A stretch of 46,367 nucleotides of DNA from Rivularia sp. T60_A2020_040. GTDB lineage: Bacteria > Cyanobacteriota > Cyanobacteriia > Cyanobacteriales > Nostocaceae. The stretch spans positions 1 to 46,367 of the forward strand of contig JACYMD010000090.1 of the NCBI GenBank assembly GCA_015272215.1, read 5' to 3'. Below the pieces are notes generated by a model, which saw only the letters and a program-made list of their open reading frames with translations, was not told where the DNA came from and searched no databases. Shown in pieces: positions 300-6,052 of this stretch (position 1 is the first letter of the stretch; each line of letters opens with the position of its first letter). A program made the translations under genes and the position numbers.

Positions 300-2447
300 A
301 TGCCTTATAAAGAGTTAGAAATATCAACAGAAGCCCCCGTTTTATCGTGGGCAAATCATGAATTAAAAAGCGATGAAATCAAAATAGCGAAAAACGTGGC
401 ATCGCTACCTTTTGTATTTAAACACGTAGCTTTAATGCCAGATGTTCACTTAGGAAAAGGAGCTTTAGTAGGTTCAGTAATAGCGACAAAAGAAGCGATA
501 ATTCCGGCGGCTGTCGGGGTTGATATAGGATGTTTTGTTGGGAATACTTTAATACCTTTAGTTGACGGTAAATCTTATTCTTTAAGAGAATTAACCGCGA
601 TAAATGAAGAAATTATTGTTTATGCTTGTACTGCCACAGGTAAAATTGTTGCAGCAAAAGCTAATGCTAAGCTAACTAGAAAAAACGCTTCTTTGGTGAA
701 AGTAATTTTAGATAACGGTGAAGAAATTATTTGCACTCCAGACCATCGATTTATGTTACGGGATGGAACTTATAAAGAAGCGCAAAATCTTCAACCAAAA
801 ACATCGTTGATGCCATTTTATTCTCAATTAGACAAAGATAATTATACTTTAATTTCTCAACCATATTCTGGTAGATTGCAGAAAGCACATTGGATAATTG
901 CTAGGTCAGGATTGTTAGGAGAAATTCCGCGTTTTGAAGGACAAAAAACAGTTATTCACCACCGTAACTTCAATGAATCTGATAACCAACCAGAAAACTT
1001 GGAGTTTATGGGCAATAGAGAACATTCTGCTTATCATCGCAGTCTAGCAGAGCGAAATCAATACTGGCAATCTCCGGAGTTTGAAGAAAAACGAAAAACT
1101 GCACTTGCTAAAAAAGCTCAAACTTCAGAAGGATACGAATATTACGCCGAAAGAGGAACTCGTAATATCCTTAAATATATGGAGCAGCAACCAGAACATT
1201 TTAAACAAGCAGTTGCTGATAATGGCTTGCGTGGAAAGCAGTATTTAGTAAGCTATAACAAGAGTGAAAAAGGACGAGCAAAATCCAAAGAAATTGCTAA
1301 CAGATATTATAGTTGCGATATCTGTGGTGCTGAAATTAAATCTCCTATTGGACTTCATAATCACCGTCGTAATCAACATCAATGTAATCATAAAGTTGTT
1401 GCTGTTGAACCTTTAAACTATAAAGAAGATGTTTATTGTTTAACGGTACCTCAATATCATAATTTTGCGTTGAAAGCAGGTGTATTTGTTCATAATTGCG
1501 GTATGGGTGCTATCAAAACTCCATTTAAAGGTGAACAATTAGAAGGTAAACTAAAGAAAATTCGTCTGGATATTGAAGCAGCAATTCCTACTGGTTTTGA
1601 GGAAAATAAAGATGTGGAAAAAGCCGTAACTAATTGGCAAAATTGGCACGATTTCAAAGAGTTGCATCGTGGAGTGCAAGATTTGTCAGGTAAAGCAATG
1701 AAACAGTTAGGTTCCCTTGGTGGTGGAAATCATTTTATTGAAGTTTGTCTGGATACGGAAAACCAAGTGTGGTTGATGCTGCATTCTGGCTCTCGTAATA
1801 TTGGGAATAAGCTAGCTCAGTATCATATTAATACAGCGAAGGATTTAGCTAAAATGGCAGATAATAAGTTGCCAGACCCGGATTTAGCTCATTTTATCGC
1901 TGGTACGCCAGAATTTGCTCGTTATTGGCATGATTTGCAATGGGCGCAAGAATATGCGCGTTACAACCGCGATGTGATGATGGCAAGATTTAAGCGGATT
2001 ATTGAAAAACATTTGGCTGGTGGAAAAGCTTTTAAACCATTATTAGAGGTGAATTGTCATCACAATTATTCCGAGAAAGAAGTGCATTTTGGTGAGGATG
2101 TGTACGTTACTCGTAAAGGTGCAGTACGAGCGCAAAAAGAAGATTACGGGATTATTCCTGGTTCCATGGGGGCGAAATCTTATATTGTTAAGGGAAAAGG
2201 TAACGTTGAAAGTTTTTGTAGTTGCTCTCATGGAGCAGGGCGTTTAATGTCAAGAAGTAAAGCAAAAAAAGCTTATACACTTGATGATTTAATCGAGCAA
2301 ACCAAAGGTGTAGAATGTCGTAAAGATGAGGGGGTTTTAGATGAGATTCCCGGTGCTTATAAGCCGATTGAACAAGTTATGGAAAATCAATCAGATTTAG
2401 TCGAAATTGTTGCGACTTTAAAGCAAGTTCTTTGCGTAAAAGGATAA
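300..2447 (+). CDS. rtcB: RNA-splicing ligase RtcB interrupted by an intein
   Basis: RtcB joins 2',3'-cyclic phosphate (or 3'-phosphate) and 5'-OH RNA ends using GTP and Mn2+, in tRNA and RNA repair. The reading frame has 715 codons. Removing residues 78-399 leaves 393 residues, the normal RtcB size. Family motifs in the host protein are MPDVHLGKG (46-54), GVDIG|CGMGA across the splice junction, LGGGNHFIEV, HSGSRNIG, NCHHNYS and, near the C-terminus, SHGAGR, whose His is the guanylylation site in the family. The insertion is exactly at the metal-binding Cys, so the ligase should be inactive until the intein is spliced out. The ATG follows an AT-rich repeat with no clear ribosome binding site. 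No archease or RtcR gene is adjacent. A GTAGAGAC hairpin repeat starts 5 nt after the stop. Confidence 0.96.
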   Translation: MPYKELEISTEAPVLSWANHELKSDEIKIAKNVASLPFVFKHVALMPDVHLGKGALVGSVIATKEAIIPAAVGVDIGCFVGNTLIPLVDGKSYSLRELTAINEEIIVYACTATGKIVAAKANAKLTRKNASLVKVILDNGEEIICTPDHRFMLRDGTYKEAQNLQPKTSLMPFYSQLDKDNYTLISQPYSGRLQKAHWIIARSGLLGEIPRFEGQKTVIHHRNFNESDNQPENLEFMGNREHSAYHRSLAERNQYWQSPEFEEKRKTALAKKAQTSEGYEYYAERGTRNILKYMEQQPEHFKQAVADNGLRGKQYLVSYNKSEKGRAKSKEIANRYYSCDICGAEIKSPIGLHNHRRNQHQCNHKVVAVEPLNYKEDVYCLTVPQYHNFALKAGVFVHNCGMGAIKTPFKGEQLEGKLKKIRLDIEAAIPTGFEENKDVEKAVTNWQNWHDFKELHRGVQDLSGKAMKQLGSLGGGNHFIEVCLDTENQVWLMLHSGSRNIGNKLAQYHINTAKDLAKMADNKLPDPDLAHFIAGTPEFARYWHDLQWAQEYARYNRDVMMARFKRIIEKHLAGGKAFKPLLEVNCHHNYSEKEVHFGEDVYVTRKGAVRAQKEDYGIIPGSMGAKSYIVKGKGNVESFCSCSHGAGRLMSRSKAKKAYTLDDLIEQTKGVECRKDEGVLDEIPGAYKPIEQVMENQSDLVEIVATLKQVLCVKG
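531..1496 (+). mobile_element. RtcB intein with HNH homing endonuclease and C2H2-like finger
   Basis: This in-frame protein intron has 322 residues (RtcB residues 78-399). It starts with Cys1 (CFVGNTLIPLVDGKS, block A). Block B has the TPDH motif (TxxH). It ends with VYCLTVPQYHNFAL...GVFVHN (blocks F and G: terminal His-Asn) followed by extein Cys400. All residues expected for class 1 splicing are present. An HNH endonuclease core lies at about residues 219-246 (VIHHRNF...NPENL-like...EHSAYH). Residues 339-360 form a C-x2-C-x12-H-x4-H pattern (Cys339, Cys342, His355, His360), like a C2H2 zinc finger, perhaps for DNA recognition. RtcB is a known intein host at this Cys. The endonuclease looks intact, so homing may still be active. 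Confidence 0.93.
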
Positions 2448-4768: not shown

Positions 4769-6052
4769 GTGACACACAGGCTCTTTAGTGTCATTGAAAA
4801 TATTGTAGAGTCAAGAAAAGTACTTAGTAGACCCTACGCAAACCCCATGACTACCACACCCCTAAGCTGGCAAGAACTAGAAACACTCACGGACTATCAA
4901 ATAGATACCGTCAATGGTCTCACCAACTCTAGAGCTAGGTTACGCTTATTTGGAAAACCTGAATCTGATGTGCGGGTAACACTTTACCGTGATAATCATG
5001 CTTGGTGTCCTTACTGTCAAAAAATTTGGTTATGGTTAGAGGAAAAACAAATCCCCTACCGTATTGAAAAAGTGACCATGTTCTGCTATGGAGAGAAAGA
5101 AAGTTGGTACAAACGTAAAGTTCCATCGGGAATGCTGCCTGCAATCGAGTTGGATGGACGGATTATCAAAGAAAGCGACGATATTTTGATCGCTTTGGAA
5201 AAAGTTTTTGGTGTATTAAATCAAGGGATGCAAGATAGTAAGGTGCTTCCTTTACGTCAATTAGAACGACTTTTATTTAGAGCCTGGTGTGCTTGGCTTT
5301 GCTATCCCACAGTTTCCCCTCAACAGGAACAACGCAACCGAGAACAATTTACACAAGTAGTAGCTAAGGTTGAGGAGGCTTTGGCTAGTACTCCAAGTCC
5401 TTACTTTCTGGATAATTTCGGCATCGTTGATGTGATCTTTACACCTTATGTAGAAAGGATGAATGCTAGTCTTTACTACTACAAAGGTTATTCCCTGCGG
5501 GAGGAAAACCCTCATTTAAGCGCGTGGTTTGACGCAATGGAAACCCGATCAACCTACCGGGGTACCCAAAGCGACTTTCACACCCATGTACATGATTTGC
5601 CGCCCCAAATGGGGGGTTGTTGGGAAAACGGTGAACCCCAGATGCTTATTAATAAAGCGCGGGTGGATAACGGTTCTTGGTTTGGGCTACCAGATGTTAC
5701 TTACCCAGAACCCGATAACTCCCCCATGGAAGCTTTGCAAAGAGTTATCGAACACCGCATTAATATTATCCGAGTCAACCCCTTAGATGATAAATTGTTC
5801 GATCAAGCTTTGCGCTGTGCTTTAACCCACATGATGACAGGTAAAGATTGCGTACCTCCATCGGGTTCTGATGTTGCTTTACGGTATTTGCGCGATCGCA
5901 TTAATGTACCGCGAGATATGTCCATTTACGCAGCCAAGCGATTGCGGGAATCCCTGGAAAAAACCGCAGCCCTTGTAGGTGATGCACAGCCAGAACCCAT
6001 TCCCACTAAACATCGACGAGATCAAGATCCGTCGAACTTTGCCAGAAAGTAG
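4769..6052 (+). CDS. Glutathione S-transferase-like protein with long C-terminal extension
   Basis: The thioredoxin-fold N-domain contains [19 protein letters not shown] with a CPYC active-site motif (Cys80 and Cys83 from the GTG start). Further on it has the cis-Pro/substrate segment [12 protein letters not shown] and the conserved ESDDIL. A helical GST C-domain follows (to about residue 265). The protein then continues for about 160 residues ([21 protein letters not shown]..., ending [14 protein letters not shown]), far beyond a normal GST of 200-230 residues. Long GST-like proteins of this type occur in cyanobacteria and plastids. The CPYC motif suggests glutaredoxin-like or omega-class chemistry rather than classical conjugation. 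The start is GTG 4769 after AGGTGG; ATG 4847 (codon 27) is a good alternative. The substrate is unknown. Confidence 0.8.

Follow-up and report, generated by a model that had tools for sequence, protein, structure and literature searches.

A probably splicing-competent class-1 intein with a predicted HNH homing endonuclease at the active-site cysteine codon of a cyanobacterial RtcB

We analysed a window of 46,367 nt from Rivularia sp. T60_A2020_040 (the whole of contig JACYMD010000090.1, forward strand). Positions 300-2447 (+) form a single open frame of 715 aa encoding an RtcB, within which an intein of 322 residues lies in frame (Table 1). The intein takes up residues 78-399, flanked by RtcB residues 1-77 and 400-715, and joining of the extein flanks GVDIG | CGMGA gives a ligase of 393 residues. 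The insert directly precedes the metal-binding Cys, which becomes Cys+1: the Cys1 codon is at 531-533, the terminal His-Asn codons are at 1491-1496 and the Cys+1 codon is at 1497-1499. On the frame, Pfam returned RtcB (8.6e-123) and Intein_splicing (5.1e-24), and NCBIfam returned intein_Nterm (4.6e-9), intein_Cterm (2.4e-7) and NF052663 (1289.7 bits, cut-off 1050); these matches are far beyond chance. The coordinates of the insert in a preliminary description, made by a model from the letters alone, proved exact to the base, and the residues it had named, Cys1, TPDH (intein residues 69-72), the terminal His-Asn and Cys+1, are all present. Three features described below, the HNH endonuclease, the zinc finger and the block-F Cys, were absent from that description.

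Table 1. Features of the interrupted rtcB frame (positions in the window)
Feature	Positions	Strand	Basis
N-extein of RtcB, 77 codons, ending ..GVDIG	300..530	+	Translation, Pfam RtcB
Intein, 322 residues, Cys1 to His321-Asn322	531..1496	+	Pfam Intein_splicing, NCBIfam, AlphaFold2, Foldseek
Block B T69-P-D-H72 (TxxH)	735..746	+	T69 in 73/73, H72 in 72/73, window included
HNH endonuclease core, intein residues ~139-175	945..1055	+	HNH_3 and conserved residues
C2H2 zinc finger C262-x2-C265-x12-H278-x4-H283	1314..1379	+	Conservation, weak zf-C2H2 match
Block-F Cys303 codon	1437..1439	+	Cys in 73/73 RtcB inteins; Asp in 21/21 GyrB inteins
Block G AGVFVHN, ending His321-Asn322	1473..1496	+	His-Asn in 73/73
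C-extein of RtcB, opening with Cys+1 (1497-1499), 316 codons and stop	1497..2447	+	Frame, 1uc2 alignment

The host is assigned to the RtcB RNA ligases by its counterparts of Pyrococcus Cys98 and of the GNHF, H(T/S)GSR, HN and HGAGR motifs. Aligned with Pyrococcus RtcB 1uc2, the C-extein holds the counterparts of GNHF, LHSGSR, CHHN and SHGAGR, and we take the residues of these motifs to have the metal-binding and guanylylated roles. The junction Cys aligns with Cys98, which agrees with its earlier labelling as the metal-binding Cys. The RtcB intein of Pyrococcus horikoshii (PH1602), which presumably carries a LAGLIDADG endonuclease, has the same insertion site, Cys98, although the two host proteins show only distant likeness (phmmer 3e-26). 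A published study (PMC4150793) gives Cys98 as the splice junction of the Pyrococcus protein, in line with the earlier remark that archaeal RtcB carries an intein at this Cys. Among curated families, NF052663 (RtcB_rel_intein2, intein-containing RtcB family protein) is matched by the 715 aa over all 626 model positions; the intein part of that model has 233 positions, whereas the window intein, with its HNH and zinc finger, is longer at 322 aa. A search of the window's genome with PF01139 found no second RtcB, both matches being the two parts of this frame. Since the active site is split and no other RtcB was found, there would be no working RtcB without splicing, as the preliminary description had proposed.

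To place the insert among its relatives, we used a sample of 388 genomes of the order, 319 of which have an RtcB. The window intein as query gave matches in 177 of the 388 genomes. The matches listed reach down to E ~6e-26, and among them those with at least 58% identity give an RtcB intein in at least 75 of the 388 genomes. Among the same matches listed, most RtcB genomes of the sample have an RtcB without the intein. Full-length reading was possible for 73 RtcB inteins, the window's included; G193, present as two fragments at contig edges, and G259, likewise at a contig edge, are not among them. Fifteen intein-free RtcBs, chosen from the window's family, all have 0 residues at the junction, so that the insert is precise and in frame. 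Three genera (g2, g7 and g14) each include both a genome with the intein and one whose RtcB is free of it (L103, L104, L108-L110, L112), and in a fourth, g5, full-length and mini forms occur side by side.

The remaining matches listed have at most 52% identity. Reading of 20 of these loci and of the window genome's own one showed GyrB as the host in every case; on these 21 loci, NrdJ/RIR1, considered as a host of the less similar inteins, was discarded. The cyanobacterial GyrB HNH inteins are 33-52% identical to the window intein over parts and have the same Hint and HNH layout by sequence, but differ in host, in having Ser+1 and in their block-F residue, which is Asp in 21/21 where RtcB inteins have Cys. 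The copy in the window's genome (L283, contig C96, minus strand) lies in a 1092-aa frame and likewise has the block-F Asp and Ser+1.

The residues of a class-1 intein, C1, T69/H72, H321-N322 and Cys+1, are found in the window and are conserved in relatives. Among the 73 order-level RtcB inteins (window included), C1, T69, C303, N311, H321 and N322 are kept in every copy, and H72, C33 and C68 each in 72. The preliminary description would have been refuted by splicing blocks unconserved in related strains; the opposite was found, with C1, C303, H321 and N322 in 73/73 and TxxH in 72/73. A 177-aa mini-intein (L087, genome G167), which has Arg for the block-B His72, is the sole exception among the 73. 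An AlphaFold2 model built from 39 sequences has a Hint fold (mean pLDDT 89.0, pTM 0.66), and a Foldseek search of the PDB with this model placed inteins on top, NpuDnaE being the best (1.7e-6) and NpuDnaB following (4.2e-6). With its splicing residues complete and a Hint fold predicted, the intein indeed looks active.

The two Hint halves are separated by an HNH endonuclease core and a zinc finger. The HNH_3 match (5.4e-5, 23.2 bits) is slightly below the Pfam cut-off of 24.8; H143, H144, N146, D151, N152, N156 and H169 are present in 39/39 endonuclease-bearing copies. The zf-C2H2 Pfam match is weak (0.065); H278 and H283 are present in 39/39 of these copies, C262 and C265 each in 38/39. Selection was estimated as summed dN over summed dS for 9 non-overlapping pairs of 322-aa copies, with the whole-intein dS as denominator for the intein regions. 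This gave 0.168 for Hint N, 0.134 for the insert, 0.116 for the HNH, 0.164 for the HNH-to-finger part, 0.104 for the zinc finger and 0.088 for Hint C, compared to 0.096 for the RtcB extein. The values of the insert and of the HNH therefore indicate that the endonuclease is not drifting where it is retained. Of the 73 inteins, 39 carry the HNH (322 aa in 37 of them, 330 and 375 aa in one each), and 34 are mini-inteins of 149-258 aa with 26 distinct, alignment-dependent gap patterns relative to the window. In many RtcB inteins, then, the endonuclease is gone and the splicing essentials are retained. The zinc finger was also considered as a splicing sensor, but this role is not supported, its pattern being intact in just three of the 34 mini-inteins (L072, L091, L092).

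A genome scan beyond the order sample matched 126 stretches, of which 108 were confirmed and 79 loci kept; every one of the 79 belongs to an RtcB frame. The N junction was readable in 77/79 (L162 and L170 begin at contig edges) and the C junction in 77/79 (not in L177 and L192). Host titles, taken as phylum labels from the MAG records, include, besides cyanobacteria, Acidobacteriota, Chloroflexota, Gamma- and Betaproteobacteria, Rubrobacteraceae, Sericytochromatia, Gracilibacteria and Jacksonbacteria. One locus titled Gracilibacteria (L146) clusters with cyanobacteria in both trees and is probably mis-binned. Across the titled phyla, intein identity to the window can be well above that of the host: intein/extein percentages are 60/29 for L164, 61/34 for L165, 58/32 for L166, 57/34 for L172, 67/44 for L191, 62/45 for L163, 69/62 for L153 and 53/50 for L174. 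In cyanobacterial loci, in contrast, the extein is always more similar to the window than the intein (for example 81/87, intein/extein, in L123), so that transfer is unneeded there. The intein of L191 (Jacksonbacteria) is 83% like that of L153 (Acidobacteria), while no extein in the set is more than 47% like that of L191. Such an excess of intein over extein likeness is what homing would predict, but the extein AU test does not reject an L191+L153 clade (p 0.263).

Local horizontal transfer of the window intein was examined on the same material and not shown. The window extein lies nearest to that of Rivularia sp. MS3 (L190, 91%), its sister in two trees (support 99 and 98). In one tree the two inteins group together with a support of 75, compatible with descent, although in another they are apart.

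Contigs of predicted viruses also encode RtcBs with such an intein, nine among the first 30 of 80 kept loci (184 confirmed). Junctions were read in 9/9; eight are at the same codon and that of L207 is four residues upstream, and the HNH pattern is present in 4/9. The RtcB of Pseudomonas phage vB_PaeM_PS119XW (L282:1486-3690), which bears no annotation beyond RNA ligase, carries an insert at the same GVDIG|C codon that ends ITGN|CGMAA.

Further insertions were seen in rtcB of relatives only, none of them in the window. Three loci, L147, L176 (7501-8730) and L190, have a second intein, 409-410 aa long, at (F/Y)CS|CSHGAGR; it is also present in L083, where the locus end cuts it. Its site is two residues before the His of CSHGAGR, which we take to be the catalytic, guanylylated residue of RtcB; the L176 copy matches LAGLIDADG_3 (6.5e-11). 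In L149 (7198-7446), 249 nt are inserted between the GGG and NHF codons, at the metal-binding His, and the 5' end of this insertion is the same in L146, L157 and L201. A focused Rfam search gave a weak match to group I RF00028, at 26 bits (E 8.4e-5) where the gathering score is 50; a U ahead of the insertion and a G at its end also fit that class, and the insertion looks like a group I intron. RtcB frames stop at the same place, after GSLGGG, in L047, L049, L053 and L081. A group II intron behind these stops was set aside, as Rfam at gathering score gave no match in six loci and L149 gave group I. Finally, in a Moorena MAG (L198:6949-8974), ~2 kb interrupts rtcB, with RtcB residues 173-190 unmatched; no Rfam family matched this insertion up to E 1.

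These data leave several readings of the window intein to be weighed. Loss of splicing, with RtcB a pseudogene here, is scarcely credible: the 715 codons run without a stop, the splicing residues are complete, the RtcB active-site residues are present, and extein and intein are both under purifying selection in relatives. Only slightly better placed, and still very improbable, is a class-3-like route with the first attack by Cys303 instead of Cys1. Cys303 does occupy the position of the class-3 block-F nucleophile, and the Rubrobacteraceae MAG intein (L172) begins PLRGDT, hence without Cys1, compared to CF.GDT-like starts elsewhere. However, Cys1 is present in 73/73 order-level copies, and the other residues of the WCT triad are missing, F74 standing for Trp and V320 for Thr, each in 73/73 under the block numbering assigned in this analysis. 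L172 is moreover a single MAG sequence. Its intein, near 5934, still has the block-F Cys and FVHN|C; it may be dead, wrong or class-3-like.

The preliminary description had also proposed that the intein acts as a conditional switch, splicing being slowed by redox or metal stress; RtcB would then mature only once the stress is over. Possible routes would be oxidation of Cys303 or its disulfide with Cys1, Cys33, Cys68 or Cys+1, and the first three of these partners are as conserved as described above. The block-F Cys is found in 73/73 order-level RtcB inteins, compared to Asp at the equivalent position of the 21/21 GyrB inteins read. It is also found in 77/77 named and 9/9 viral RtcB inteins, two sets that are biased, having been fetched partly by a Cys-containing pattern. 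A precedent is the DnaBi1 intein of Mycobacterium smegmatis, which likewise has a block-F Cys in its active site, Cys118, reported to form a disulfide on oxidation, and whose splicing is inhibited by H2O2 (PMC6195587). In Anabaena 7120, rtcB (all3526) is described as repressed by TrcR, with relief under translational stress and a 77-fold increase without TrcR (PMC10272220), and a single RtcB was found in the window's genome. The precedent is, however, of class 3, with no nucleophile at position 1, a WCT triad and DxxH, whereas the RtcB intein has Cys1 and TxxH and is without the WCT Trp and Thr; the class-1 DnaBi2 of the same host is given as unresponsive in that report (PMC6195587). At F:4, Asp is the commonest residue in inteins and Cys the second, according to a survey (PMC4031507), so that the Cys can be explained without invoking regulation. 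By the matches listed, the majority of RtcB genomes in the sample do without the intein, and the zinc-finger pattern survives in just 3/34 mini-inteins. Many copies without the endonuclease retain what splicing needs, and homing followed by decay accounts for this pattern. We therefore consider the switch unlikely. The invariant Cys303 is its best lead and keeps the idea alive, though it is not in itself a sign of regulation. In its widest form, a three-thiol class-1 family (Cys303, Cys1 and the ligase's metal-binding Cys+1) with redox- or metal-gated splicing, the idea is equally doubtful. If it were true, stress would hold back the maturation of an RNA-repair ligase, with release afterwards.

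The reading that we prefer, with a probability of about 0.9, is a splicing-competent intein of class 1 that carries an HNH homing endonuclease within it, at the active-site Cys codon of the only RtcB found. It draws on the anatomy, the conservation, the identity of the site, the intein-free alleles, the decay into mini-inteins and the intein identities across titled phyla; what we infer from these sequences is how splicing proceeds, that DNA is cleaved, and that both activities still operate today. After translation, Cys1 would form a thioester, RtcB's own active-site Cys (Cys+1) would take over the N-extein, and Asn322 would cyclise with the assistance of His321, releasing the 393-residue RtcB. 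The segment with the HNH and the zinc finger would bind rtcB genes that lack the intein and cut them at these same codons, and the intein would be copied into the cut gene during repair. Catalytic codons may serve as target since they hardly vary and since an imprecise loss would be fatal to the enzyme. Homing and decay explain the intein-free majority and the loss of the endonuclease; the conditional switch is not supported, and nothing in the sequence shows the intein to work as one.

The RtcB intein is well preserved and belongs to a type of selfish element that has been catalogued before: the protein type is already curated as NCBIfam NF052663 and the insertion site is already known in archaeal RtcB. 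On its own, the finding is biologically unsurprising. In the open-access literature we found no study of bacterial RtcB inteins and none of a group I intron in rtcB, which is no proof that there is none. Taken together, the alleles of a single ligase in related cyanobacteria, some without the intein, some with a mini form and some with the endonuclease, make a clean natural series for testing the effects of inteins, in a gene that, in Anabaena 7120, is reported to respond to translational stress (PMC10272220). The same few active-site codons of rtcB are hit by this intein across titled phyla and predicted viruses, and in some relatives also by a second intein and an apparent group I intron; rtcB thus illustrates well how selfish elements converge on catalytic codons.
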